Positions 43,849 to 58,221 of a stretch of 58,221 nt of DNA are shown here, piece by piece. A model generated the notes under the pieces. It had not been told where the DNA came from and searched no databases. It saw only the letters and a program-made list of their open reading frames with translations. Positions within the stretch are counted from its first letter, which is position 1. Every line of letters begins with the position of its first letter. Position numbers and translations under genes: made by a program. The DNA comes from a virus, in IMG/VR virus record IMGVR_UViG_3300010413_000034, positions 1 to 58,221 of that record; one strand, given 5' to 3'.

Positions 43849-45150
43849 TTATTCTCCTATTGTATCTAAGTTATGAGAGTGTGTATATAAAGCATATCTT
43901 ATTGCATCAGCAATATGAGAATACTCATTGTGAAGAGGCCTTTCGTTTAATAATCCTTCCCGTGGATCCCACCTATAATTCTCAAACATGTCTATTACGT
44001 TTGTACATTTTTTATCTATAAATAATCTATCGTGATCTACTAGTGATGCTATATAACCAATTCCATCTAAAACTGATTTTTTAGCGTTTATAGTTGTTAT
44101 ATCGAATTCATACGCTAAATCGTACCTGGTTTGAGCCGCCGCAGAATCAATATATATAAAATCTAATTTATGTCTATCTATCATTGACTGTATAGCTTCG
44201 GCATACTGCGCGGTAGAGGATTCATTACTTAAATATTCATCTACAATATATACATTGTATCCATCAGTATATATAATTGCCATTGCTGTAGGATCTCTAA
44301 ATCCTAGATCTAATCCCGCAATTCTATCTTGTACATGAATTGTATCTAAATCTAAATCTAAAATATTATCTTTATTTAGGTTAAATATTTGTCCTTCTAA
44401 CGCTACGAAATCGGATTCATATTCCTGTGCAAATTCAGCTTTACTCATGGAATTTCTAGCATCTTCTACAACTTCCATTGATGCTCTTGGGTTATCTTTA
44501 TATGTACTTCTTATGGAAGCCCATGCTGAATATTGTCCAGTTGTATCAAATCCTCTTTTATAGAATTCATAGAACCAATTTTTCCCTCTAGGGGTACTTA
44601 TAAAAATCGCTTTAGAGTTTGGTTTATCTAATGTAGGTTGAAGTTGAATATTAAATACACTAGCACCATCATCATTTAGGGCGGCCTCGTCAAATATAAT
44701 TAGATCATAACTTCTACCAACTACAGAATCTGCTTGACTTACTGATCCCATTCTTATAATAGATCCATTTTTTAATTCTATTATTTTATCTTTAGCATTA
44801 CTTCTGTCCAATTCTATATCAAAAGAAGCTAATAATTTTCTTTGTAAATCCCAACTTATAGAAGATAAGGAATAATTCGGAGCAATAATTAATATTTGTG
44901 TACCAGGAATCAAAGTTACTAGATGCCCTATAACATTACTTATAAAACTTTTTCCTGTTCTTCTATTTAATACGGCGGTAATAAACCTATATAATGGATT
45001 TTGCACTGCATTAATTAGAGCTATTTGTGGAGGTACGGGTTCAATACCTATTAAATCCAAATAATTTTGTATTGGTAATTTAATAAATCTCTGATCTTCT
45101 GGAAAATCCTGTAACTCTGTTCCACTTATATCATTTCTACTTATTTCCAT
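43849..45150 (-). CDS. terL: Terminase large subunit
   Basis: The 433-residue packaging motor has an N-terminal ATPase and C-terminal RNase H-like nuclease. Walker A is NRRTGKS (62-68). Walker B is DLIIFDEAA (about 148-156). The coupling motif is FISTPRG (about 181-187). Nuclease acidic residues lie in AGLDLGFRDPTAM (about 278-290) and FIYIDSAAA (about 336-344), with a third acid likely in the C-terminal HIADAIRYAL. It follows the adhesin genes by 2 bases. The matching small subunit is unusually distant (54728-55192). Confidence 0.95.
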   Translation of the reverse strand: MEISRNDISGTELQDFPEDQRFIKLPIQNYLDLIGIEPVPPQIALINAVQNPLYRFITAVLNRRTGKSFISNVIGHLVTLIPGTQILIIAPNYSLSSISWDLQRKLLASFDIELDRSNAKDKIIELKNGSIIRMGSVSQADSVVGRSYDLIIFDEAALNDDGASVFNIQLQPTLDKPNSKAIFISTPRGKNWFYEFYKRGFDTTGQYSAWASIRSTYKDNPRASMEVVEDARNSMSKAEFAQEYESDFVALEGQIFNLNKDNILDLDLDTIHVQDRIAGLDLGFRDPTAMAIIYTDGYNVYIVDEYLSNESSTAQYAEAIQSMIDRHKLDFIYIDSAAAQTRYDLAYEFDITTINAKKSVLDGIGYIASLVDHDRLFIDKKCTNVIDMFENYRWDPREGLLNERPLHNEYSHIADAIRYALYTHSHNLDTIGE

Positions 45151-45152
45151 GA

Positions 45153-48026
45153 TTAGTATCTATCTGTATCTGGTCTTACTAAAGCAAATCCGCCTGAATC
45201 ATTACCCTCAGCTACTCTAACTTCACTTATGTATAAAGTTCTAGCAATATCATTTTCTCCAGTTAGTAATCCTAAATATAACCCTATTTGATATTGTTTA
45301 TCAATAGGAATAGGCTCAAAACTTACAGTCATTTCACCTGTTCTAGATAAATTAGTAATTGTGTCTGATAATTCAAATTCAGTTGCTCCAGTTAGCCAAA
45401 CATAATGTGTTCCGTATTCTGATACACCATTTGCATAATAATACCTAGCAATAGAAGTTGATCCATCTCTAGCTAATAAGTCTCCAGGTGCAAAATTTCC
45501 TGTTATAGCCCAAGTTTTAATTTTTCTTATCTTTCTAATATCTATTCCACAAGAATCCTTAAACAAAATATTGTTTACAGAGGCATTATCTACAATTTTT
45601 GTATAATTTCCAGGATCTGTAGATACCGCATGCCAAATATTCATTGTTCCTAATTGATTTAATTTAAAATTAAAAACTAAATCATGCCAAACATCCGCAG
45701 TAGTTGGTGTTCCTAAGCTAGCACTAGATAATGCAGATAACATACCTAATCCTCTACAATAAGTAGTTCTAGGTATAATTGGAACTTGACCATCTGCACT
45801 ATTTATATATCTTACAACTGCATCAAAAGAAGACATACCTAATGCTACTGAAGATCCTGCATAGTCTATTTTTACATTTCCAGCAGAACAAGTGGCTCCA
45901 TTTGGGCAATTAACTAATTCTGGACTAGGTTCCATAGGAGAAACTATTCTCATATACGAATGTGCTAATGGAACACTTGTTGAAAATCTAAAACTCATCC
46001 CTACCCAAAATCCAACATCACCCCATCTAAATTTTAATGGTTTATTATCTATAGTGGCTACAATCTCTGCTCTAGTAGCTGGTTTTGTCGTTCCGAGTCC
46101 ATCAGTTACACAAGCTAATGTATTAGTATTTCCAGCGTGTCTGGCTGGAGTAGAAACAATTGTAGCAGATCCACCAGTATTAGATATATCTATAGCACTT
46201 CCTATAGTTCCACCTGAAAAATTTCCTGTCCATATAACTTCTGATACTGTTTGATTTAATGTGGTAATAGGATTGCCAGTTGCAGCTGTTTGTCCAGACT
46301 GATTAAAACTAGTATCTCTAGCCAATATTTTTATGTCATAAGCAGTATTTCTTTCTAAATTTGGAATTCTTGCTGTGGTTGTTCCTGCTGGTATAGTTTT
46401 TATTTCTTTATTATCTAAATATATTGCATATTCTAATAAATCTCCGGCTGAAGACGCTGCCCAAGATAAATCAATATAAGTATTATATGGTGTTGCTGTT
46501 AATGTAGCTGGACCATCTGGTGCAGTATAATCTACGCCTGCTTCTGCCCATTTTGTACAGCTAACTAATTCAAATTTATCGTCTCCTGCATCAGCAGAAG
46601 TTTTTACTCTTACTGTTTGCTCCGTAAGAAAATCGTTTCCCTGTGTATCTAATGCATCTACTTCAGCTGATGAAAGATAAACACTGGTATCTGCACCATT
46701 GTAAAATATTTGTTCTGTGCCATCATCATATAAAAACCAAAGTTGTGGTTGACTTAAATCTAAATTATCATAAGATATAATAGCGCTTTGATATTTTACA
46801 CCTAATCTCCATTTTTGACATATACATTTTACTGTACCATCTGCTTTATATCTAGCTTGAAAAACATATTGATTATTTGAATCTACATATCTATTTTCAA
46901 AGTTAACATCACTATTTGCTAGTGGAATTGGTTTCGATAATTTCCAAACCATTTTTTTATTAACTTGAGGATAATCAAATTGAAAATCTGAAAGTGCAGT
47001 GACATTAACAGCTTGATTATTAGACACAACCATTCCATCTACTGGGTCACAAGTATATGTTCCAGAACCTATTTCTGGTGTTTGTCCATGTAAATTACCG
47101 TCTGTATCAAAAGTAGACTCAACCAATAGTCCTAATCTGATAATTTGAGAGCTTTGTGTATAGTCTGATTTTTGTATAGTATCTGTGGAACAAACTCTAT
47201 ACATATAATCATATCCTGGCGCTATATCTGCATCTGTATATGAAAAAGTAGCGCTAGATACTGTTGCTACTTGTATCCAGTCTTGCCCATAATTCCAAGA
47301 CCTTTCAATATAATAATTTGTACAATCAGCATTAGTATTATTTGTTACTCTTGTCCATAATAAATCTATACTCTTTTTATCTGCTCCTTCAGTTAAACCT
47401 AAAGATGTTGGTCTAGCTAAATATACACCATCTACAGTTATTGTATATGATGCTTCATTAGAATATGCTTCGTTAAAATTTATAGAATCATCTACAGCTA
47501 ATACTTTCCAAACATATGTTCCCGGAATAAGAGTTGATACTGTAGTTGTTGAGCCCTGTACTAAATTAGTAGCAGAGCCTTGTGAATAAGTACCACTAAC
47601 AGGAGTATTTCCTGGATGATTATGTAATTCATAATGATTTATTCCACTAGCATCTATAGCACCGTTAAAATTTATATCTATAGATCCTAGAGGATTGTCT
47701 GCATTTGGAGTCATAGTAAAATTCATACCAGAAGTATCTGGTGGATCAGTTTCATCGCCAGTTCCACCACCATCTGATGCATTTGCAAATAATTCCCATG
47801 CAGTATTGGTTGCATTTCTTACATAGTAGCCAGCGCCGAATCCGGGATCCCAGGTTGTTCCATCAGCATTTACAATCATATAAGCTTCAGGCGTAGTAGG
47901 TTCTGCCGATAGAGGCTCTAAAAATAAATGATCTAAATGTATGGATTCCAATGTTGGTGGAGTTCCTAAAGCTACATTTTTTATCTCTTGCTGTGTTGCA
48001 GCATTTGTATCCTTAATATTTGGCAC
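45153..48026 (-). CDS. FN3 and lyase-like tail adhesin
   Basis: This 957-residue modular surface protein starts with a short fibre-type region (about 1-90, with NADGTTWDPGFGAGYYV). FN3-like domains follow at about 95-200, 200-300 (LLWTRVTNNT, YMYRVCSTD) and 495-590 (IDLSWAASSAGDLLEYAIYLDNKE-like). A LamG-like beta-sandwich lies at about 300-490. The C-terminal part (about 595-957) resembles jelly-roll polysaccharide lyases or binding domains: WVGMSFRFS, WHDLVFNFKLNQLGTMNIW and ITGNFAPGDL. It probably binds or trims a host glycan. No catalytic residues can be assigned by eye. It shares the adhesin cluster with the 1573-residue protein and lies directly before terL. Confidence 0.75.
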   Translation of the reverse strand: MPNIKDTNAATQQEIKNVALGTPPTLESIHLDHLFLEPLSAEPTTPEAYMIVNADGTTWDPGFGAGYYVRNATNTAWELFANASDGGGTGDETDPPDTSGMNFTMTPNADNPLGSIDINFNGAIDASGINHYELHNHPGNTPVSGTYSQGSATNLVQGSTTTVSTLIPGTYVWKVLAVDDSINFNEAYSNEASYTITVDGVYLARPTSLGLTEGADKKSIDLLWTRVTNNTNADCTNYYIERSWNYGQDWIQVATVSSATFSYTDADIAPGYDYMYRVCSTDTIQKSDYTQSSQIIRLGLLVESTFDTDGNLHGQTPEIGSGTYTCDPVDGMVVSNNQAVNVTALSDFQFDYPQVNKKMVWKLSKPIPLANSDVNFENRYVDSNNQYVFQARYKADGTVKCICQKWRLGVKYQSAIISYDNLDLSQPQLWFLYDDGTEQIFYNGADTSVYLSSAEVDALDTQGNDFLTEQTVRVKTSADAGDDKFELVSCTKWAEAGVDYTAPDGPATLTATPYNTYIDLSWAASSAGDLLEYAIYLDNKEIKTIPAGTTTARIPNLERNTAYDIKILARDTSFNQSGQTAATGNPITTLNQTVSEVIWTGNFSGGTIGSAIDISNTGGSATIVSTPARHAGNTNTLACVTDGLGTTKPATRAEIVATIDNKPLKFRWGDVGFWVGMSFRFSTSVPLAHSYMRIVSPMEPSPELVNCPNGATCSAGNVKIDYAGSSVALGMSSFDAVVRYINSADGQVPIIPRTTYCRGLGMLSALSSASLGTPTTADVWHDLVFNFKLNQLGTMNIWHAVSTDPGNYTKIVDNASVNNILFKDSCGIDIRKIRKIKTWAITGNFAPGDLLARDGSTSIARYYYANGVSEYGTHYVWLTGATEFELSDTITNLSRTGEMTVSFEPIPIDKQYQIGLYLGLLTGENDIARTLYISEVRVAEGNDSGGFALVRPDTDRY

Positions 48027-48039
48027 TTCTACTCCTATA

Positions 48040-48372
48040 TTATGCTATTGTTCCTTGTCTAATAACTACTCTGTCAAAATACGTCTCTTTAGAGCCATCA
48101 TCTATTTGTATTTCTAAAGAGGCTGGGCCTTCGTAAGTTACATTTATTGTATCTGCTGAGGCCCACTCTATTACTATTAGTGAATTTGCCCAATCTGCTC
48201 CTGTTTGAGACGGAGTACATGTAGTAATTGGAAAAATTTCTTGTTTATTTGAAGATATAATTTTTGCCTCTACTGTAGCTGCAGGATTTATAGTAAAGGT
48301 TTGTTCTTTACCTATTATACCCTTTCTTAATTGTACAGAAAACGATATATCGTCACCTGTTACTATATCCAT
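48040..48372 (-). CDS. Small beta-rich structural protein
   Basis: This 110-residue protein is predicted all-beta: DISFSVQLRKG (about 8-18), ATVEAKIISS (about 32-41), SLIVIEWASADTINV (about 64-78) and ASLEIQIDDGSKETYF (about 83-98). It resembles small upper-baseplate or fibre-base domains that pair with adhesins. It sits between the two large adhesins, sharing one base with the upstream stop. It may be an adaptor or chaperone for them; that is inference from position. Confidence 0.6.
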   Translation of the reverse strand: MDIVTGDDISFSVQLRKGIIGKEQTFTINPAATVEAKIISSNKQEIFPITTCTPSQTGADWANSLIVIEWASADTINVTYEGPASLEIQIDDGSKETYFDRVVIRQGTIA

Positions 48373-51300
48373 TATCTAATCTCCAATTTTCTATTAGCTC
48401 CAATTAGTCGTGTAAATTTTACATCTAAAATTTTTGCTTTTCTATTATCATAAATTAATTCTGAGCTTCTTTGACTAGGAACAACAGCTAAGTCTTGTAT
48501 CCCATTAATAATACTTGGACCAGAATTAATATTGCCTTCACCAGTTATAACTCTTAGAGCTACACCTGTAATAGTACTATATACTGTTGTACTGCCACTT
48601 ACCTCAATTGTTGATGGAACTCTACCCGCTATTGTGCTAGATGTAATTATTGAGCCAGCAGATTCTATTATTCTAGTAGCCGATCCAGCAATAGTAGAAA
48701 TTGTTGGTATTGCTCCAGATGCAACTATAATAGTTCCAGATTGTACAATACCAGAAATTGCAGATATTGTTGTTATAGCACCAGCTGCATCGAATACTCT
48801 ACTAACAGATCCAGCAATACTAGAAGCTGTAGTTATACTACCTTCAACTCCTAAGCTTTTGGTTGCAGATCCAGAAATATTAGCAGTTATTGGATTCGAA
48901 ATACGTAAATAATCAACTTGACTCTGATCAGATTGAGTAGCGTGTATATATCCTGTTTGTGAAGGATTACCCCCACTAAATATTCTACCTCTATGAATCC
49001 CTGGAGAAGTGATAACTGTACTTGGGGAGCCTGCTACATATAAAACAATTCCACCAGTAACAGAATTAATTTTTATGTCAAATTCAAGCCATGTATTAGT
49101 TGGAATTTGATCAACATATGCAGAAAATAGTACACCAAGCCCAGTTCCATCATAGGTAACTACTCCATTACTAAAAGTAAATCCGGATGCTCCTATATCA
49201 TTCCAGTTAGATGCATGAAGCATTTCAGAACCACGAATTAAGTTTCCAACCCCAATAGTTCCGTGTTTTCCTGCACCGGATAAGCTAGAAGATGCAACTA
49301 TTGATCCACTTGCTTCTAATACTCTTTCTGCTATACCATTAATGCTGGAACTTGTAGTTATCGTTCCGCTACCATCGAATAATCTATTAGCTATACCAGC
49401 GATACTCGAAGTGGTAGTTATTGATCCACTAGCAGTATGTGTTTGTATTCTATCTGCAGTACCTGCAATACTTGATATAGTAGTTATTGAACCAGTTGCT
49501 GATTTTACATTATCTTTTTCAGCAGTACCAGTAATACTAGAAGTTGTAGTTATTAAACCACTAGCAGTATGCGTTTGTATTCTATCTGCTGTTCCCGCAA
49601 TACTTGATGTAGTAGTTATTGACCCACTAACAGTATGTGTTTGTATTCTATCCGCAGTACCGGCAATACTTGATATTGTAGTTATTGAACCAGTTGCTGT
49701 TTTTGCTCCAACTTTTTCGGCTGTTCCAGCAATACTTGATGTAGTAGTTATTGAACCACTAGCAGTATGTGTTTGTATTCTATCTGCGGCACCAGTAATA
49801 CTTGATATTGTAGTTATTGATCCAGTAACTACAGCAACTTTTTCAGCAGTACCAGTAATACTTGATGTAGTAGTTATTGATCCACTAACAGTATGTGTTT
49901 GTATTCTATCTGCTGTTCCAGCAATACTAGAAGTTGTAGTTATTGAACCAGTTGCTGTTTTTGCACCAACTTTTTCAGCAGTACCAGTAATACTTGATGT
50001 AGTAGTTATTGACCCACTAACAGTATGTGTTTGTATTCTATCTGCTATACCTACAATGCTTGATGTTGTTGGTATATTACCTGATGCAGTTACTATTGTA
50101 TATGCATCTACTGTACCACTAATTGTTGCGGAAGTAGAAACCCCAATTACTTCTTTTACGGTTAGATCTGGTATCGTCAGCGTTCCGCCGCTTATACCTG
50201 TGAACGAAATATAAATTCCGTCGTAACCACTCAGGTCGGTCAGCTTCCAGACTGCCGTCTTTGTTCCGGTGTGATGGGAGTTAAACGCCGGGACTAGATT
50301 GTTTCCAATCCAGAGCTGGCCTATCTGCGCGATACCTGTGCGAGAAACATTATGAAGTGTAATCTCATACGTTTTGCCAACCTGCAGACCAGCCGGATCG
50401 GGATAGGAGTCTATGTACCTGCCGCCAGTCGTTATCGTCGCATGTATGGAACTACTAACAGCCGAGTTGACTGTTACACCTACCGAGGTTGTCCAGCTTG
50501 CTGAAGTATCATTTTCCGCAGTCGTTACATTACAATTAGGATCAGATAATAATTCTACATCTGAAGTACAGGTAGCAATTACTATTCTATCTGCTGTACC
50601 TGATATACTTGATGTTGTTGGTATATTACCTGATGCAGTTATTATTGTATATGCATCTACATCACCGGATATACTTGCTGTTGTTGGTACATTACCCGAT
50701 GCAGTTACTATTGTATATGCATCTACATCACCGGATATACTTGATGTTGTTGGTATTGCTCCACTTACATCTACAATATTACCTACTGAAGCACTTCCTG
50801 TAATACTTGATGTTGCAGTTATTGAACCACTAGCAGTATGCGTTTGTATTCTATCTGCTGTTCCGGCAATAGTACTTTCTGGCAGCTCAGTAATTCTAAA
50901 ATAATCAAGAGTTATTGTCCAAGTATTATTGGCACCATTAAATAACGTATTTGCCGGTGTATCTCCGGCGGATGCAATCCACTTGTAAGTTCCTGGAGTA
51001 TCAACCCATGGCAGACCAGCCCATATTCCAGCTATAATAGGTCCCCATAAAGTTCCGGTAACAGCATCTACTTTAACTTCTACTTCATACAGTTTACCTT
51101 GAACAAGCGGAGGAGCTGTAGTTGGAAGTAGTTGAGATGCACCAGTACCGTCATACGATATAGTACCTCCACTAATAGTCCATCCAGTTGTTAAATTCCA
51201 GCGACTAGGTTGTAGAAACTCAGGATCTAATAACATGCCACCATTGGCTGTTATAATACGTGTTCCAGTACTAGTAATACTAGAAGTTGTAGTTATTGAA

Positions 51301-53093
51301 CCACTAGCAGTATGCGTTTGTATTCTATCTGCTGTGCCGGCAATACTTGATGTTGTTGGTATATTACCACTTGCTGTTACTTCTGTATATGCATCTACGT
51401 CACCATTAATAGCTGATGTTGTTGGTATATTACCACTTGCTGTTACTTCTGTATATGCATCTACATCACCATTAATAGCTGATGTTGTTGGTATATTACC
51501 ACTTGCTGTTACTTCTGTATATGCATCTACATCACCATTAATAGCTGATGTAGTAAGTATTGCTCCGCTTGCATTACGTATTGTAGGTCCAGTTACCTTT
51601 TCGGCTGTACCTGCAATAGTAGAAGTTCCTATAGGTCCAGGATTGAGTACTTCTATTGTACAATCGGTTAATGGATCATATGATGTCCAAAACGATGCTA
51701 AGCTTCCTGTATTGAAGTTATCATCATCTATTCCGGTTGAACCAGCACCACTATTAACTTTAAAATTATCGAATAAAAATTCTCTTTCTGGTATTTCTCC
51801 AGACTGTAAAGTAAATAGCCCTATTCTAGTAGGTGTAATTGTATACGTAGATAGAGATCTTGCGCCAGAATTATTCCAGCTAGACCCATCACTTGACCAA
51901 TGAATAGTATATATATCACCAGTAAGTGTACGTACTACTTTTAGAAATCTAGTACCGCTTGGTATATTATTATTTGAGTATAATACCTCTGTATTATCTA
52001 AATTATCATCTACATATGCCGCATATAGCCTACATGTAGTAGTAGTCTGCCATTGTACTCCTATACGTAAATATTTTCCTGGTGGAGATCCTGTGCCTTC
52101 TCTAAGGGCAAACCCCCAGCCAACTAAATCTCTATCACATAAAGTTAAGCACTCTACCTGAACGTCATAATCAGCATCCGTCATATCCTGGAGGATATGT
52201 GGAGAAGTTATACTTGGAGTAAAGAAAGTGTGCTGTTGATCACCTGGCATATATATGCGAAGTAATCCACGGCCATTTGCTACTAGTACTCTATCTGATG
52301 CTCCGGATATACTGGAAGTAGTTGTTATGCTACCAGATACATTATGTGTAGTTGCTCCAACTGCTCCAGTAATAACAGGCCAAGTAGGTGTATTATTTAA
52401 TGTAAATCCAGAAGACCACTCATCTAAATCTAAACGTAATTCTATAGTGTCGTCTTCACTTACATCTGCTGATCTTACTTGAATAGAATATAAAAACTCA
52501 GTACCAGAAGATTGTAAATCTGTAGTATTTCCTCCAGCTAAACCGTCAGCCTCATCTATACCTTCATTTGGAGTTACAAATGAATATGCTGTTCCTAATC
52601 TTCTAGTAGTGTCTCCAGCATCTGTTATATTTGCAGAAGCGGTTGTTCTTACTACATTAGATGTACTGGTTACATTTGTCCAAGCTCCATAACCACCACC
52701 AGTATTTATTCTATATTGTAATCTAGGTGTTAGATTTAGGGCCTTATTACCTGAAGTTTCTTCTAAGTCTGCACGGAAAAATACAGTAGTATCATAAGCG
52801 ATAGATCCTTTAGTGGGATTAGTTGCTATACTGCCTATAATTGTAGAACCAGATTCTGTTCCATCACTATAAAAAGCCCAAGTATTACAATCTATTACAG
52901 GAGGATTAGTTGCTAAAGCCATTGGTCCTTCATACCAATAACCTTTATCAACTATTTTTACATATTCTGTTCCATTCCATTCAGATTCTGAATAGGTACT
53001 TATCCAACGGCGTTTATAAGTTTTCGGCGCGTTTATCTGCTTGGACTTTTTCATAGACATCACCAAAAACTTGTTTACTGACCATTCTACCAA
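48372..53093 (-). CDS. Giant repeat adhesin with interspersed beta-sandwich cassettes
   Basis: This protein has up to 1573 residues. After an N-terminal region (about 1-265), a LamG/DUF1349-like beta-sandwich (about 270-460, GWGFALREGTG, LFDNFKVNSG) is followed by stretches of a 22-residue repeat of the form ASGSITTTSSIAGTADRIQT. The repeats (about 480-618, 737-840, 990-1260, 1390-1530) are interrupted by three carbohydrate-binding-like cassettes at about 618-735, 845-977 and 1265-1385 (YDGTG, YEVEVKVDAVTG, YRI). It looks like an extended fibre whose stalk repeats carry glycan-binding heads. The start is uncertain: ATG at 53093, 53060 or 53054 (MKKSKQINAP) all lie inside the upstream gene. 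The middle cassette has foreign base composition. Confidence 0.78.
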   Translation of the reverse strand: MVEWSVNKFLVMSMKKSKQINAPKTYKRRWISTYSESEWNGTEYVKIVDKGYWYEGPMALATNPPVIDCNTWAFYSDGTESGSTIIGSIATNPTKGSIAYDTTVFFRADLEETSGNKALNLTPRLQYRINTGGGYGAWTNVTSTSNVVRTTASANITDAGDTTRRLGTAYSFVTPNEGIDEADGLAGGNTTDLQSSGTEFLYSIQVRSADVSEDDTIELRLDLDEWSSGFTLNNTPTWPVITGAVGATTHNVSGSITTTSSISGASDRVLVANGRGLLRIYMPGDQQHTFFTPSITSPHILQDMTDADYDVQVECLTLCDRDLVGWGFALREGTGSPPGKYLRIGVQWQTTTTCRLYAAYVDDNLDNTEVLYSNNNIPSGTRFLKVVRTLTGDIYTIHWSSDGSSWNNSGARSLSTYTITPTRIGLFTLQSGEIPEREFLFDNFKVNSGAGSTGIDDDNFNTGSLASFWTSYDPLTDCTIEVLNPGPIGTSTIAGTAEKVTGPTIRNASGAILTTSAINGDVDAYTEVTASGNIPTTSAINGDVDAYTEVTASGNIPTTSAINGDVDAYTEVTASGNIPTTSSIAGTADRIQTHTASGSITTTSSITSTGTRIITANGGMLLDPEFLQPSRWNLTTGWTISGGTISYDGTGASQLLPTTAPPLVQGKLYEVEVKVDAVTGTLWGPIIAGIWAGLPWVDTPGTYKWIASAGDTPANTLFNGANNTWTITLDYFRITELPESTIAGTADRIQTHTASGSITATSSITGSASVGNIVDVSGAIPTTSSISGDVDAYTIVTASGNVPTTASISGDVDAYTIITASGNIPTTSSISGTADRIVIATCTSDVELLSDPNCNVTTAENDTSASWTTSVGVTVNSAVSSSIHATITTGGRYIDSYPDPAGLQVGKTYEITLHNVSRTGIAQIGQLWIGNNLVPAFNSHHTGTKTAVWKLTDLSGYDGIYISFTGISGGTLTIPDLTVKEVIGVSTSATISGTVDAYTIVTASGNIPTTSSIVGIADRIQTHTVSGSITTTSSITGTAEKVGAKTATGSITTTSSIAGTADRIQTHTVSGSITTTSSITGTAEKVAVVTGSITTISSITGAADRIQTHTASGSITTTSSIAGTAEKVGAKTATGSITTISSIAGTADRIQTHTVSGSITTTSSIAGTADRIQTHTASGLITTTSSITGTAEKDNVKSATGSITTISSIAGTADRIQTHTASGSITTTSSIAGIANRLFDGSGTITTSSSINGIAERVLEASGSIVASSSLSGAGKHGTIGVGNLIRGSEMLHASNWNDIGASGFTFSNGVVTYDGTGLGVLFSAYVDQIPTNTWLEFDIKINSVTGGIVLYVAGSPSTVITSPGIHRGRIFSGGNPSQTGYIHATQSDQSQVDYLRISNPITANISGSATKSLGVEGSITTASSIAGSVSRVFDAAGAITTISAISGIVQSGTIIVASGAIPTISTIAGSATRIIESAGSIITSSTIAGRVPSTIEVSGSTTVYSTITGVALRVITGEGNINSGPSIINGIQDLAVVPSQRSSELIYDNRKAKILDVKFTRLIGANRKLEIR
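49320..50110 (-). repeat. Tandem 60-66 bp coding repeats, array 1
   Basis: About eleven to twelve head-to-tail units encode variations of GSITTTSSIAGTADRIQTHTA. Most are 66 bp; one is 60 bp (a two-residue deletion). Units alternate between QTHT-type and AKTA-type variants, suggesting duplication of pairs and homogenisation. Confidence 0.88.
50575..50880 (-). repeat. Tandem coding repeats, array 2
   Basis: About four to five units of the same 66-bp family, here mainly the DVDAYTIVTASGNIPTTSSIS type. The array separates the GC-rich cassette (50165-50560) from the cassette at 50885-51240. Confidence 0.82.
51349..51546 (-). repeat. Three near-identical 66-bp direct repeats
   Basis: Units 51349-51414, 51415-51480 and 51481-51546 differ by only one visible base (ctacg versus ctaca). 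Each encodes SAINGDVDAYTEVTASGNIP plus TT. Such identity points to very recent duplication or active recombination. Confidence 0.95.
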
Positions 53094-53346
53094 CCAGCAA
53101 CTTGTTTATTTTCCTCCCATGGACTAAATAGTCAACTATATCATTCTCGTAGGAATGTAACCAAGTATCTACTAACATATAATACGGACAACCATGTACT
53201 ATTTGATAGCTTAAAGCTTTTTCTCCTGTCCTAAAGGGAACTTTTTGTAATATACAAAGAACCCCGAAAGAAGGCATATTTTCTAATCCTTGACCACTTT
53301 CCCAAGTAATACCCTCATCATAATATACTCTCCAGGAGAACTCCAT
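53014..53346 (-). CDS. Small conserved-looking phage protein
   Basis: This 110-residue protein contains SWRVYYDEG, MPSFGVLCILQK, YQIVHGCPYYMLVDTW and INKLLVGRMVSKQVFGDVYE. I recall this pattern (PxFGVQxIxQ, YYxxxxxW, a central DYL, GRxxxxxxFxxIY) from small uncharacterised proteins next to phage tail-fibre genes. No enzymatic motif is evident. It lies between the sulfotransferase and the giant adhesin and overlaps the adhesin start by 41-80 bases, so it may be an adhesin-associated factor. Confidence 0.65.
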   Translation of the reverse strand: MEFSWRVYYDEGITWESGQGLENMPSFGVLCILQKVPFRTGEKALSYQIVHGCPYYMLVDTWLHSYENDIVDYLVHGRKINKLLVGRMVSKQVFGDVYEKVQADKRAENL

Positions 53347-53355
53347 TTTTATTCC

Positions 53356-54204
53356 TTATGCAAATAATAATTGTTGTCTACTATCTAAATATCCCATCTC
53401 TATCATCATATCTTCGTGATGTGATATTAATTTTTCTTCTTGTTCTGAAGTTAATATCTCTTTCCAATATCCAGAAGTTCCTTTACTAAAAAAGCTATCT
53501 TGAAAATCGCTTTTTTCCATAAAACCATCATTTTCTTCTTGCTTTTTAACCCTAGAAAATTCACATAGCTTTAAAGCATTTTTAACTCTCTCTTCTTCTA
53601 CAGCTAAATTTAATCCAGTTAATATCCTCGAAAAAGATTTAACTGGATTTAATAACATATCTTCATATCGTACTATAGTAACTGGGAATCTGTCATCTTC
53701 TAACCAAGATCTAACATGATTGCTCCAAGAACCAACAAAATGTACTACATTAGACTCTTCTCTATTTAATCCATAATCATTATAATTTATTAAATCTATT
53801 GATTCATCTATAGTTTTTCCCATATGTTTGGATATACTTATTACCATATCTCTAGGATCTCTAACTAAATAAACTGCTGACTTAGTTAATTCTTTTGGTA
53901 TTAAGGTTATACCATTAACTGCTTCATTTCTATTATGTGTTTTAAAGATTGTTGGATTTTTTGTAGAAGTTGCTGCTTGATTTAATAAGGCACCCGGTCT
54001 AAAAAATACTGCTGCTCCAGGCTCAAATTTATCTATTGGTAATGAGGCGCAGTTTTGATATTCAGAAACTTTAATATCGGTAATAGTTACATTTAATTTA
54101 TTTATATCTAAATAACCATCCGAGTATGCTTGCACAAATAATCTAGCCCAGGTATTTCCGGATTTTGGGTAGGATGCTAGCCAATGTACTCTTCTGACTA
54201 ACAT
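53356..54204 (-). CDS. PAPS-dependent sulfotransferase
   Basis: The 282-residue protein has all main motifs of cytosolic-type sulfotransferases. The 5'-phosphosulfate loop is SYPKSGNTWAR (about 11-21). KTH (about 88-90) carries the probable catalytic His. The 3'-phosphate site is YLVRDPRDMVIS (about 113-124). RYEDMLLNP (about 179-187) and the C-terminal SKGTSGYWKE (about 240-249) complete it. It would transfer sulfate from PAPS to a hydroxyl or amino group on a sugar, lipid or small molecule. There is no signal peptide, so it acts in the cytoplasm. It is embedded in the late operon between small structural genes. The substrate is unknown. A glycan linked to the adjacent adhesins or to the host surface is one idea. 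Confidence 0.9.
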   Translation of the reverse strand: MLVRRVHWLASYPKSGNTWARLFVQAYSDGYLDINKLNVTITDIKVSEYQNCASLPIDKFEPGAAVFFRPGALLNQAATSTKNPTIFKTHNRNEAVNGITLIPKELTKSAVYLVRDPRDMVISISKHMGKTIDESIDLINYNDYGLNREESNVVHFVGSWSNHVRSWLEDDRFPVTIVRYEDMLLNPVKSFSRILTGLNLAVEEERVKNALKLCEFSRVKKQEENDGFMEKSDFQDSFFSKGTSGYWKEILTSEQEEKLISHHEDMMIEMGYLDSRQQLLFA

Positions 54205-54205
54205 A

Positions 54206-54583
54206 TTAGGCTGGTGTTGTATATGTTAAACTATTTAATTTAACTACATCGCCGTTTGCTATGGTTAAACTACTTAAATTTATCTCCTGTCCAGTTACTC
54301 CGCAGGTTACTTCTAATAATTTTAGTGGTGTAGTATCACCATCATAAAAACTAGCATGCTCTATAACTCCGGCTGTGGCGCTAGTATCTGATTTTGGTAA
54401 TCCTGAAAATGTAACTACTCCTGTAGCTACTGTTCCACAAGTTGCATTAAAAGTTATAGTAGCTACTGAAGCATCTGCCGAGGTTTCAAATACTAATTTA
54501 CCTGCAGAAGCCCCATTATCTATAGCAGTTATTACAGCATTGCCTATAGCGTTACGTAGTGCTGTTTCGTGTACGTGAGCCAT
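54206..54583 (-). CDS. Small Thr/Ala-rich protein, probable virion component
   Basis: This 125-residue protein has an N-terminal helix (HETALRNAIGNAVITAID) and a beta-rich remainder high in Thr, Val, Gly and Ala (LVFETSADASVATITFN, VVTFSGLPKS). A good ribosome site (GAGGAGATAGAG) precedes the ATG. Similar small Ala/Thr-rich proteins in long-tailed phages are head decoration or fibre-base proteins, but I cannot assign it. It overlaps the preceding 58-residue gene by 32 bases. Confidence 0.65.
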   Translation of the reverse strand: MAHVHETALRNAIGNAVITAIDNGASAGKLVFETSADASVATITFNATCGTVATGVVTFSGLPKSDTSATAGVIEHASFYDGDTTPLKLLEVTCGVTGQEINLSSLTIANGDVVKLNSLTYTTPA

Positions 54584-54728
54584 TCTCTATCTCCTCTATT
54601 TCTTCGTCTGTTAAAAATTGATAAGCCCATTTTGGAATGAAGTTATCCTTAAATTTTGGTTTTCCATTTTTATCTCTAACTATTCCATATAATTGGAACT
54701 TTCCTTTTTTTGCCTTTACTTCTGGCAT
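54552..54728 (-). CDS. 58-residue protein below terS
   Basis: ATG at 54728 overlaps the terS stop (TAATG) and opens a 58-residue frame ending at 54552. The product is basic at the N-terminus (MPEVKAKKGKFQLYGIVRDK), then has a DNF/PKWAYQFL segment and an acidic helix (DEEIEEIENG). Without it the interval 54584-54727 would be empty in an otherwise fully packed operon. Function unknown. Confidence 0.65.
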   Translation of the reverse strand: MPEVKAKKGKFQLYGIVRDKNGKPKFKDNFIPKWAYQFLTDEEIEEIENGSRTRNSTT

Positions 54729-55192
54729 TATTTTTTATCTCCTGCCATTAATTTACTCAGTAGTGATCCATAATTCTCACCAAACTGTGCACCATTAATT
54801 TGTGTATTTACTTGCAGTTTAGGTGTAGTTTCCTCACGCTGCATTTGCTTTGCTTCAGACTCTCTAAATTTCATAGCTAGTGCTAGTAAATCTGCTATGT
54901 CTTTACTACTTCCTATTTCTGCTTCTTCTAATTCTTCTAATTTCTTTTCTATTATTCTATCTAATGTTGTTTGAATTTTATTTCTATTTAAATACCCTTG
55001 TTCTAAAAATACAGTATCCAGAAATCTTTTTACTTCTTTTTTAGATAAGAAATAAGCTACCCGTTCAACGGGTATTTCTAACATCTCCGCCGTTGCGGAG
55101 ATGTCATTAGTTTCTAAATATTTTGTAGCTACGGCTACCATTTCAGGTGACATTCTGTAGCTTTCTTCTGCATTTATTAGTTCTTGTGTCAT
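54728..55192 (-). CDS. terS: Terminase small subunit
   Basis: The 154-residue protein has an N-terminal helix-turn-helix-like region (about 14-60, SPEMVAVATKYLETNDISATAE then IPVERVAYFLSKKEVKR). A central oligomerising helix pair follows (about 60-115, RNKIQTTLDRIIEKKLEEL and ADLLALAMKFRESEAKQM). A flexible tail ends in YGSLLSKLMAGDKK. This is the layout of small terminases that recognise the packaging site and regulate terL. It overlaps the upstream beta-helix gene as ATGA. The large subunit starts 9.6 kb further on. Confidence 0.8.
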   Translation of the reverse strand: MTQELINAEESYRMSPEMVAVATKYLETNDISATAEMLEIPVERVAYFLSKKEVKRFLDTVFLEQGYLNRNKIQTTLDRIIEKKLEELEEAEIGSSKDIADLLALAMKFRESEAKQMQREETTPKLQVNTQINGAQFGENYGSLLSKLMAGDKK

Positions 55193-57477
55193 CTTCTATC
55201 CGTTGGTGAAGTTACAGGAGGAATATAAAAAAGTGCTCCAGGTTCTGGAGGACCTACTGTATATCTACCAAAGTAATCTTTTTCATATTCTGGTATAGGT
55301 ATGCCTTGATCTAGTATTGAGTTTCCAATACTGGGTTGTACAGATTCGACATCGCCCTGAATTACAGTAAATCCTGGATCAATTATTTGACTATTATCGG
55401 CACCCATTAGATCCTGAAAACCTGTACTCGCTGTTGAAAAGTTTATGCTAGTTGCTCCATCGTCCAGACTGAACTGTGTACCAGTATCATCATCATAGAC
55501 GTTATAATCACTATCCATTCCATCGTCGGTTACCTCATGCCAGGTTAATGGATCTATGCTTAGATTATTTCTTGATGTCCAGCCATATACACCTGAGATA
55601 CCAAAGTCATAATTAACCTGACACCTAGCAGCTGTATTGTTATACATTTTATTTGCTGCATTATTTGTATTCTGCACACCAACCCTTATGCAAGCATGTG
55701 GTGACCACCACGCAACGTTTTGGCTTGCAGTATAGTTTCCAACTACTATGTTCCCTGTAATCTCATTCCCTGAAAAGTTATTACTCAAATCATTGCACAG
55801 CTGAATACCATAGTAGTAGAAGTCATAAATAAGATTATTCCTTATTTTGTTATTCTGGCACGTTCCGCTAGACGTGTTATTCCACCATTCAAAGACATTT
55901 AGCCCATTGAGTATTAGCATATTACCATTAGTAGTAACTGATGTAACATTTGCAGGTATAGTTCCAGATGTCTCGTCTACTTTTGTAATAGTCCAGCAAT
56001 CGTTTATATCTTCTGAGGTTGAAGATCCAGTAATACATATTAACTTGCCACTAGTATATATAAAGGCATCAGTCCAGGTTATCGTTGTTGGATTACCGGT
56101 AGTAGAGATGTTGGTAATGGTTGAACTTTGATTGCCACCATTAGGACACCCTATATTGTATATTTTTGTGTTCTCTACTATCCATCCATTTGGGTTCTGT
56201 GAGCCAAGCGCCATCTCGTCGCCAGTTATTTTAGTACTTTCTCTGATATAGCAATTCGTATCTAGATTGTAAATCTCACTGTTCCTAATAGTAACATTAT
56301 CCCAACTATAACCCGTATTGCTATTTGCAAAATATATTCCTGTTCCACCATCATGGATTTTAACGTTATCAATTAAGAAGTCTGAGGCAGTAACAGTTGC
56401 GGCACTATAATACCCAGATATTCCGCTAAGACAACCTTCGATATCCATATTCCTAAATGTTAAATTTGTAAATGTACCTGTCCCTGTACTACCAGCAATT
56501 ATGAGTCCAGAAACGCACATTTTTAGATCTATATTCTCAAAGGTAAAGTCATTTAATTCATAAGACCCACCTAAAGAGACAATAGAGCCGTGGCTATACT
56601 TAGTGTAGCGTTTGCCATTGGAATTCGGATTCGATCCATCTGAGGCTCTAAAATATATTTTAATGCCACTACCTTGATCACCTCTCCACCATTTGCCATT
56701 TGCTAACTGAGCGTATGTTGCAACCTCCTGCAAAAATACTCCATCTTCACCTATACCAAAATAATTAGTACCCGCATAGTCCCAATACCAATTTGAGCCA
56801 TCTGCTACAAATGTAGGCTGCGCATCTCCATAACCATAGAAAATAGGTCTGGCTCCAGGTGCCTTATCGTCAGTACGTAGAGTTGTGCCATCCCAAGAAT
56901 AAGCACCAAAAGTATGTGGTCCAGGATAATCTCTAACTTGGTTATCTAAGCGCATTCTTCCATAATCTGCTGCGGCTGAGGTTGATATCCAAGTGTCTCC
57001 ACGCTTCCAAAAGATTCTATCTCCTGGTTGTAATAAATACTTTAATGTTGTATTAAAAAAGTACCAACTAATAAATTCATAAGGTGAACTAGGGGTGCCA
57101 TCATTAGTGTCATCGCCACTATTTGAAACAAAGTAATCAACCCCACCATATGGATTTTGATAGTTAGCGTCCCCAGGACGAAGACCATCATTTGTTGCAT
57201 GAGCATTAGTATATGTATAAGAACCTCCCGTAACAGAGAAATTTATTCTTATAGCATTAGCCTCAGAAAACGTTACGGTATGTATTCCATTAGGATCTGG
57301 GCCAGTAGTTACTCCAATGTATCCTAAACTTATACTATCACCCACGGAGAAATCATGTCCAATTATAACTATTCCTGCTTCTTCAGGGCTATATGCATAT
57401 ATACTAGAAATATCAAATATTTCTGCGCTAACAACAGTACTAATGATAAATAATAATAAAAATAAAACTTTTTTCAT
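55189..57477 (-). CDS. Signal-peptide right-handed beta-helix protein
   Basis: This 762-residue protein starts with a clear Sec signal peptide (MKKVLFLLLFIISTVVSA, cleavage likely after A18). A small beta domain (about 20-110) leads into a right-handed parallel beta-helix (about 115-690). The helix is marked by DYFVSNSGDDTNDGT, then stacked turns such as FENIDLK, FRNMDIEG, IDNVKIHDGGTGIY and IRNSEIYN. The end (EKDYFGRYTVGPPEPGALFY) is the Pro/Gly-rich tail common in secreted pectate-lyase-like proteins. Such folds bind or cleave polysaccharide. A Sec signal is unusual for a virion protein, so secretion into the periplasm or medium is possible. It is coupled by TAATG to its upstream gene and by ATGA to terS. 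Its GC is higher than the replication genes. Confidence 0.82.
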   Translation of the reverse strand: MKKVLFLLLFIISTVVSAEIFDISSIYAYSPEEAGIVIIGHDFSVGDSISLGYIGVTTGPDPNGIHTVTFSEANAIRINFSVTGGSYTYTNAHATNDGLRPGDANYQNPYGGVDYFVSNSGDDTNDGTPSSPYEFISWYFFNTTLKYLLQPGDRIFWKRGDTWISTSAAADYGRMRLDNQVRDYPGPHTFGAYSWDGTTLRTDDKAPGARPIFYGYGDAQPTFVADGSNWYWDYAGTNYFGIGEDGVFLQEVATYAQLANGKWWRGDQGSGIKIYFRASDGSNPNSNGKRYTKYSHGSIVSLGGSYELNDFTFENIDLKMCVSGLIIAGSTGTGTFTNLTFRNMDIEGCLSGISGYYSAATVTASDFLIDNVKIHDGGTGIYFANSNTGYSWDNVTIRNSEIYNLDTNCYIRESTKITGDEMALGSQNPNGWIVENTKIYNIGCPNGGNQSSTITNISTTGNPTTITWTDAFIYTSGKLICITGSSTSEDINDCWTITKVDETSGTIPANVTSVTTNGNMLILNGLNVFEWWNNTSSGTCQNNKIRNNLIYDFYYYGIQLCNDLSNNFSGNEITGNIVVGNYTASQNVAWWSPHACIRVGVQNTNNAANKMYNNTAARCQVNYDFGISGVYGWTSRNNLSIDPLTWHEVTDDGMDSDYNVYDDDTGTQFSLDDGATSINFSTASTGFQDLMGADNSQIIDPGFTVIQGDVESVQPSIGNSILDQGIPIPEYEKDYFGRYTVGPPEPGALFYIPPVTSPTDRR

Positions 57478-57956
57478 TAGCTAACCTTTGTTATATTTAA
57501 TGTTCCATTAGTAGAAACCCTAAGTACATTAATATATAAGGCTCCTGGTGGTATTGTTAATTTTTCTATACCGGCTGGAAAATACATACTTGCGGAACTT
57601 GCTGGTGGCGTTTCTAAATTATCTGCTGAAAAATTTACATAACAATCTGTAGGAGCATATATTCGTATAGTATCTCCAGCACTTAATCCGCTAATAAGAG
57701 TATCTAGTTCTGTGTTTACATTTGTATCAGTGTAACTTATATTCCCTATTGCAGCGTCTTCTAAAGCCGCCATCTCCGTGGCATTACTACCTGGTGTTGT
57801 TGGGTTCCAGCCTAAAACTGATCCATAATAAGTGAATTCTTGCCCAGTTGTTTCATTGATTCCTTTATGTCCTATTAAAGGGCCGGAGGTTGGCGGGCCT
57901 TCAGCAGTGGTCCATGACCAGTATTTGATTTCATTTCTTGAATGAGGTGATTGCAT
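57477..57956 (-). CDS. Uncharacterised late protein, possible fibre or receptor-binding part
   Basis: I place the start at ATG 57956 (MQSPHSRNEIKYWSW), 4 bases after the upstream stop, giving 159 residues. A longer reading from 58004 only repeats the upstream gene in another frame. The sequence has a Trp/Tyr-rich beginning, a middle with Thr/Asn/Gly (GSVLGWNPTTPGSN) and a beta-rich end (TIRIYAPTDCYVNFSA, ALYINVLRVS). This fits a small beta-sandwich structural protein. Its stop overlaps the start of the beta-helix gene. Confidence 0.6.
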   Translation of the reverse strand: MQSPHSRNEIKYWSWTTAEGPPTSGPLIGHKGINETTGQEFTYYGSVLGWNPTTPGSNATEMAALEDAAIGNISYTDTNVNTELDTLISGLSAGDTIRIYAPTDCYVNFSADNLETPPASSASMYFPAGIEKLTIPPGALYINVLRVSTNGTLNITKVS

Positions 57957-57960
57957 TATA

Positions 57961-58221
57961 TTATTCCCAATTTCGTTCTTTCCAACCAGACAAAGTATGA
58001 ACATTCTTAAAGTTAGTTGCAGTATTGCGGCTTATTTCTTGTCCATTGGCGTCATAGATCACATCGTCAGGCATTAATTGTAGTGCCTGCGCAGGAATAG
58101 GGTATACTGGAGTGCCGGCAATAGTTTCAGGTACGGTCTGCACTGGATTCCAAGGATCACTAATATCCCACTGCGCAGGAACTTTATATGTACCCCATTG
58201 AGTTCCGTCACGATTCCAAAC
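57961..58221 (-). CDS. 3' end of an unidentified late protein (partial)
   Basis: An open frame enters from the right edge of the window and ends at TAA 57963-57961, giving the last 86 residues of a longer protein. It has Trp-rich DGTQWGTYKVPAQWDISDPW and PIPAQALQLMPDDVIYD-type segments and ends WKERNWE. No start lies in the window; the GTG at 58143 is internal and unsupported by a ribosome site. The composition suits a structural or fibre protein, but that is a guess. Confidence 0.65.
   Translation of the reverse strand, partial: VWNRDGTQWGTYKVPAQWDISDPWNPVQTVPETIAGTPVYPIPAQALQLMPDDVIYDANGQEISRNTATNFKNVHTLSGWKERNWE

Follow-up and report, generated by a model that had tools for sequence, protein, structure and literature searches.

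Why would a tailed phage place a Sec signal peptide on a late beta-helix protein whose gene adjoins that of the terminase small subunit (terS)? The question is raised by a minus-strand gene, here termed BH762, in a virus record of 58,221 bases that lacks end repeats (the window, meaning the whole stretch of DNA analyzed). Since the terminase large subunit (terL) and the portal protein display 52% and 42% identity, respectively, to those of T5-like Demerecviridae of Vibrio, we assign the record on this sequence likeness to an uncultured tailed, T5-like phage. The reading frame at 55189-57477 (minus strand, ATG start, 762 aa) is exactly as a first-pass annotation had given it, and the features of the locus are collected in Table 1.

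Table 1. Positions of BH762, its parts, and its neighbors in the window.
Feature	Position	Strand	Basis
BH762 (signal peptide, N-terminal module, and right-handed beta-helix), 762 aa, ATG	55189..57477	-	ORF, family profile, fold model
Sec signal peptide MKKVLFLLLFIISTVVSA, residues 1-18	57424..57477	-	score 52.9, top of window
N-terminal module, residues 19-110	57148..57423	-	missing from aligned family members; model pLDDT mostly <50
Beta-helix entry cap, residues 112-230, family motif YFVSNSGDDTNDG...QPGDRIFWKRGDTW...GAY...PGARPIF	56788..57144	-	alignments A1, A2
C-terminal cap, residues 656-750, like the 'choice-of-anchor Q' end of bacterial beta-helix proteins	55228..55512	-	alignment A2; relatives match NF041518
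ATGA overlap, BH762 stop / terS start	55189..55192	-	junction read
Terminase small subunit (terS)	54728..55192	-	phrog_3802, E 7.8e-28
Terminase large subunit (terL)	43849..45150	-	PF03237, PF17289, phrog_2
Upstream 175-aa ORF (start uncertain)	57477..58004	-	no signal peptide; TAATG overlap with BH762
terS-terL insert, 9.6 kb	45153..54728	-	virion-type and accessory genes

The N-terminus of BH762 reads MKKVLFLLLFIISTVVSA followed by EIFD, and it contains the three regions of a Sec/signal peptidase I substrate, namely a charged n-region (MKK), a hydrophobic h-region within the 7–15-residue range (VLFLLLFIISTVV), and an AXA-like c-region (VSA, followed by E). By a simple home-made scorer, the BH762 signal exceeded that of the next ORF of the window, a probable membrane anchor (52.9 vs 31.9), and among 60,000 random N-termini with the composition of the window only 4 reached a score of at least 50. 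The Sec signal peptide called in the first-pass annotation was thereby confirmed; export of BH762 by Sec is well supported by its sequence, with cleavage predicted after VSA18. The BH762 sequence contains neither a second hydrophobic segment nor a lipobox, and no outer-membrane export or anchoring signal, including a T9SS tail, was found in it. An uncleaved membrane anchor in place of a cleaved signal is scarcely credible, given the short hydrophobic core, the canonical VSA-E end, and the lack of a second hydrophobic segment.

Placement beside terS in the late operon held equally well, with terS matching phrog_3802. The late operon runs on the minus strand in the order 175-aa ORF, BH762, terS, a 58-aa ORF, a 125-aa virion-type protein (phrog_3758), a sulfotransferase, a 110-aa ORF, a 1573-aa repeat protein, a second 110-aa ORF, a 957-aa fn3 protein, terL, ORFs of 115 and 131 aa, and the portal gene. 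At the upstream junction, TAATG joins the stop of the 175-aa ORF to the start of BH762, and the overlaps at both ends of BH762 speak for transcription within an operon rather than from a promoter and terminator of its own. The ATGA overlap is compatible with translational coupling between BH762 and terS but is no proof of it. A chimeric contig was judged unlikely because this ATGA junction is exact.

Single-protein searches with BH762 returned no relative, either in family libraries (Pfam, PHROG, and NCBIfam, with E cutoffs of 10, 0.01, and 1), in a tblastn search of 50,697 phage records and of plasmids, or in scans of viral and genome contigs. Relatives surfaced only through a conserved-motif scan, in which a degenerate DNA pattern for GD.[IV].[FW].RGDTW of BH762 was run on viral contigs. 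The scan revealed 11 loci, 10 of them different (L089-L099), whose proteins possess the common entry cap YYVxNxGxDxNxG...PGDxILFxRGDTW...GAYGxGxxPII. A family profile built without BH762 then found BH762 with an E value of 3.5e-8 (searched set of ~1,000 sequences), whereas none of 100 shuffled copies was reported; this profile is not wholly independent, as the scan motif was taken from BH762, but the match spans most of the helix. The same profile also picked up two signal-less proteins encoded between terS and terL in the nearest relatives of the phage (L013 3118-4584 and 4581-6254). A second scan added further viral members, and a genome scan added 37 bacterial and archaeal loci; by a crude scorer, a Sec or lipoprotein-type signal was found in 26 of the 35 non-truncated bacterial members. 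These alignments assign BH762 to a right-handed beta-helix family common to bacteria, where its members would mostly be secreted, and uncultured phages. In a tree of the family entry region, 28 of 40 inner branches were open and BH762 sat on a long branch, so that the tree reveals neither its donor nor whether the signal was gained or lost. Among the members placeable in it, the frequency of signal peptides showed no difference between phages (9/13) and bacteria (23/30).

The predicted fold is consistent with this family assignment. While a single-sequence AlphaFold model of BH762 reached a mean pLDDT of 34.5, the model computed with 25 aligned family members displayed a pTM of 0.62 and a core pLDDT of 70–89. 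Structural comparison of the model revealed BT_1002, PL6, PL9, rhamnogalacturonan lyase, inulin lyases, and GH136 at Z 21–26, and phage tailspikes at Z ~20. In line with these results, a family profile of 25 rows, BH762 being one of them (A2), matched the GH136 lacto-N-biosidase LnbX nearly over its full length, including the C-terminal cap (E 3e-38), and further matched a GH120 xylosidase (9e-20) and the GH141-type BT_1002 (7e-11). Model and alignments support a right-handed beta-helix of GH136/GH141/PL9/PL6-like type with the family N- and C-terminal caps. LnbX (PDB 5GQC) and the GH120, GH141, PL9, and PL6 enzymes possess the same entry cap (YYVSxxGxDxNxG...PGDxxL), beta-helix, and C-terminal cap. 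In contrast to the LnbX group, BH762 is phage-encoded and carries an extra N-terminal module of 90 residues; the catalytic residues were not found in it at the aligned positions, where the alignment is poor.

No catalytic site was identified in BH762 when the GH136 columns of the alignment were read: the columns that we take to hold the GH136 catalytic Asp pair are not Asp in BH762, in a poorly aligned region. A coil motif, [FIL]E[FY]W, is common to BH762 and 11 family members (12, compared with a mean of 2 and a maximum of 6 in shuffles), yet nothing establishes it as an active site. Of the "pectate-lyase-like helix" described in the first-pass annotation, the fold stands (PL9, PL6, GH136, and GH141), whereas a lyase active site could not be demonstrated.

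Our preferred reading, to which we assign a probability of roughly one half, is that BH762 is recent cargo in a T5-like phage and is exported by Sec late in infection as a beta-helix that binds or cleaves glycans outside the cytoplasm. BH762 would be translated along with the packaging proteins in the late phase of infection; its signal peptide would direct it to SecYEG, and signal peptidase I would cut behind the VSA motif. The remaining 744 residues, by model and homology a right-handed beta-helix of GH136/GH141/PL9 type, would fold once outside the cytoplasm. There the protein may bind or cleave a glycan, whether in the envelope, the capsule, or the matrix, and so prepare release or alter the cell surface before and at lysis. 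The first-pass annotation proposed secretion that loosens capsule or acts on neighboring cells, and BH762 may serve in this way; in a cell with an outer membrane, though, Sec by itself takes a protein no further than the periplasm, and reaching the exterior of a diderm host would call for another secretion system or for lysis. Counting against our reading are the lack of an identified catalytic site, of an outer-membrane export or anchoring signal, and of an assigned fold for residues 19-110. Beta-helix depolymerases are usually regarded as virion parts that are set free only by lysis. If phage beta-helix proteins carry export signals, infected cells would remodel extracellular glycans before bursting, and annotation by fold only ("tailspike") would be wrong for a class of genes.

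Known beta-helix proteins offer partial parallels to this reading. Bacterial secreted beta-helix proteins of the choice-of-anchor Q type combine a signal peptide with the same caps as BH762, whereas BH762 lies in a phage late operon and has neither a T9SS tail nor a lipobox. The tailspike depolymerases Sf6, CBA120 TSP2, and Depo32 are likewise right-handed beta-helices and, to our knowledge, phage tailspike depolymerases are encoded among the tail genes without export signals; BH762, in contrast, has a signal peptide, and its gene lies between the 175-aa ORF and terS, not among tail genes.

The composition of BH762 sets it apart from the rest of the operon. Its GC3s is 0.238, whereas the other late genes have 0.123 (z 9.5), and even the highest 760-codon block of those genes (0.153) lies below it; the 175-aa ORF in front of BH762 deviates too (0.202, z 3.1). 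A BH762 relative was absent from the terS/terL relatives and from 19 of their whole records. With both foreign composition and patchy presence, BH762 is a horizontally acquired, moron-like cargo gene that entered the head of the late operon recently. Translational coupling had previously been taken to show that the gene is integral to this operon; the overlap is real, but the foreign GC3s and the absence from the relatives found mark BH762 as a recent import, which limits that claim. Among the family genes of other phages, GC3s deviates both ways, and foreignness is therefore no general rule for the family. In the two cultured relatives that were inspected, terS and terL are direct or near neighbors, and thus the 9.6 kb that part them here, as well as BH762 at the least in front of terS, are extra genes.

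A gene this recent could have been captured from a bacterium together with a signal that is now vestigial, leaving BH762 a neutral passenger or an ordinary virion protein despite its signal. The foreign codon usage fits such a history, as does the fact that no relative keeps BH762 and a single copy is known; moreover, BH762 may be too recent for selection, which counts against the explanation that we prefer. Nonetheless, the 762-codon frame is open and meets the genes on either side in precise overlaps, the signal, being strong and intact, would draw the protein away from capsid assembly, and signal-peptide status clusters in gene sets of other phages, making a vestigial signal quite unlikely.

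Export of late proteins is not out of place in this phage group, judging by the signal-peptide late genes of its relatives. By score, 39 of their 532 late-strand ORFs carry a signal peptide, including an Ig-like protein that starts at the terS stop (L028) as well as curlin-like, FecR, CsgG (L004 and L007; CsgG E 1e-47), pilin-like, and metalloprotease-like proteins. CsgG and curlin-like proteins occur on T5-like marine phage contigs at L007 10370-11486 and L004 17793-20438 (the latter with FecR too), and the CsgG gene of L004 occupies positions 53139-53756 in a record of 61,299 bases. CsgGF is known from marine phages: the OM43 phage Melnitz encodes CsgGF and no other curli genes, and its CsgGF, an exported envelope component of a tailed phage that belongs to a protein family unrelated to BH762, is thought to act around lysis (PMC9004378). 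In L049, L052, L053, L061, L063, L068, and L074, a conserved signal-peptide block lies upstream of terL (in records with a recognized terS, between the two terminase genes) and comprises a pilin-like protein of 165–180 aa, proteins of 130 and 135 aa, and an M48-like protein with GHEIYHC.

Superinfection exclusion would offer another role for an exported product. In phage T5, Llp acts on the FhuA receptor, and in a T5-like phage an exported BH762 could similarly mask or remove a receptor, all the more if its glycan-active fold stripped a glycan receptor; BH762 has no lipobox or anchor, however, and its position is late rather than early, and we regard this role as very unlikely.

Signal-bearing BH762-family genes also lie in the virion operons of other, unrelated uncultured phages. 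The family gene lies between the neck protein and the major tail/tail terminator genes in L091, downstream of the major head protein gene in L114, and downstream of major head, tail fiber, and virion protein genes in L109. In an unbiased set, the upstream neighbor carries a signal peptide for 7 of 11 signal-bearing members and for 0 of 11 signal-less ones (Fisher p 0.004), L108 being counted as positive by eye and a relaxed scorer. Some of these signal-bearing neighbors are tail-fiber-like, such as L106 (DKRITDLTAQTDAISASDLIP) and L105, which matches phrog_24210 "tail fiber protein" (E 4e-6). The premise that virion proteins normally lack export signals can therefore be accepted only with a reservation: signal-bearing fiber-like and beta-helix genes, whose products may be virion parts, do occur in virion operons of uncultured phages. 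In the window, every gene of the terS-terL insert is without a signal peptide by score.

These operons suggest an alternative, an exported adhesion module, in which BH762 would be a spike sent by Sec to the periplasm, where it folds, perhaps with disulfides, and either joins the tail at lysis or coats the cell. The capsid, neck, and tail flanks of the family genes, their signal-bearing and fiber-like partners, and the 10 Cys of BH762 agree with such a spike. On the other hand, the upstream gene and the fiber-type neighbors in the window have no signal peptides, BH762 adjoins terS outside the tail genes, and Cys content is only slightly higher in signal-bearing viral members (median 1.83% vs 1.34%), so that a spike of this kind is unlikely for BH762.

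Two fiber-query scans revealed more such fibers, including a run of four signal-peptide genes after a capsid-like gene (L169-L171), in a set that is biased because the queries themselves were fibers with a signal peptide. Runs of two to four consecutive late Sec-signal genes were located at L169-L171 1780-6460, L168 2737-6576, L164 3001-5510, L105 1433-6239, L114 3538-8189, and L091 1889-6621; each of them ends in a BH762-family beta-helix gene, and several of the genes are tail-fiber-like. The two fibers tested had no counterparts in 50,697 phage records, and no published account of such signal-peptide fiber sets was found in open-access full text. Tentatively, a widespread class of tailed phages might export a fiber/spike module of two to four consecutive late genes, for tail-fiber-like proteins and a beta-helix spike, via the host Sec pathway, acting from the periplasm or cell surface or joining virions only at lysis, with BH762 as the single-gene version. 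These recurring sets are a lead, and a more surprising one than BH762 alone; they raise the question of whether the fibers reside in the virion or in the supernatant. In Bdellovibrio, MAT fiber proteins carry a signal peptide before phage-adhesin-like beta-rich modules (PMC10769870), although these are bacterial genes for predation and are kin to tail fibers, not to BH762.

The terS-terL region has further features. The 1573-aa protein of the window (48372-53093, TTG start) contains many copies of a GSITTTSSIxGTADRIQTHTA-type repeat, and no relatives of it were present among the fetched loci. At the same terS-terL site, L013-L025 carry another insert of ~5 kb, which includes the two signal-less BH762-family beta-helix proteins. 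The phage sulfotransferase between terS and terL is located at 53356-54204 of the window (PF00685, E 1.8e-26), and L013-L025 retain a short ORF that matches only its C-terminal 55 residues.
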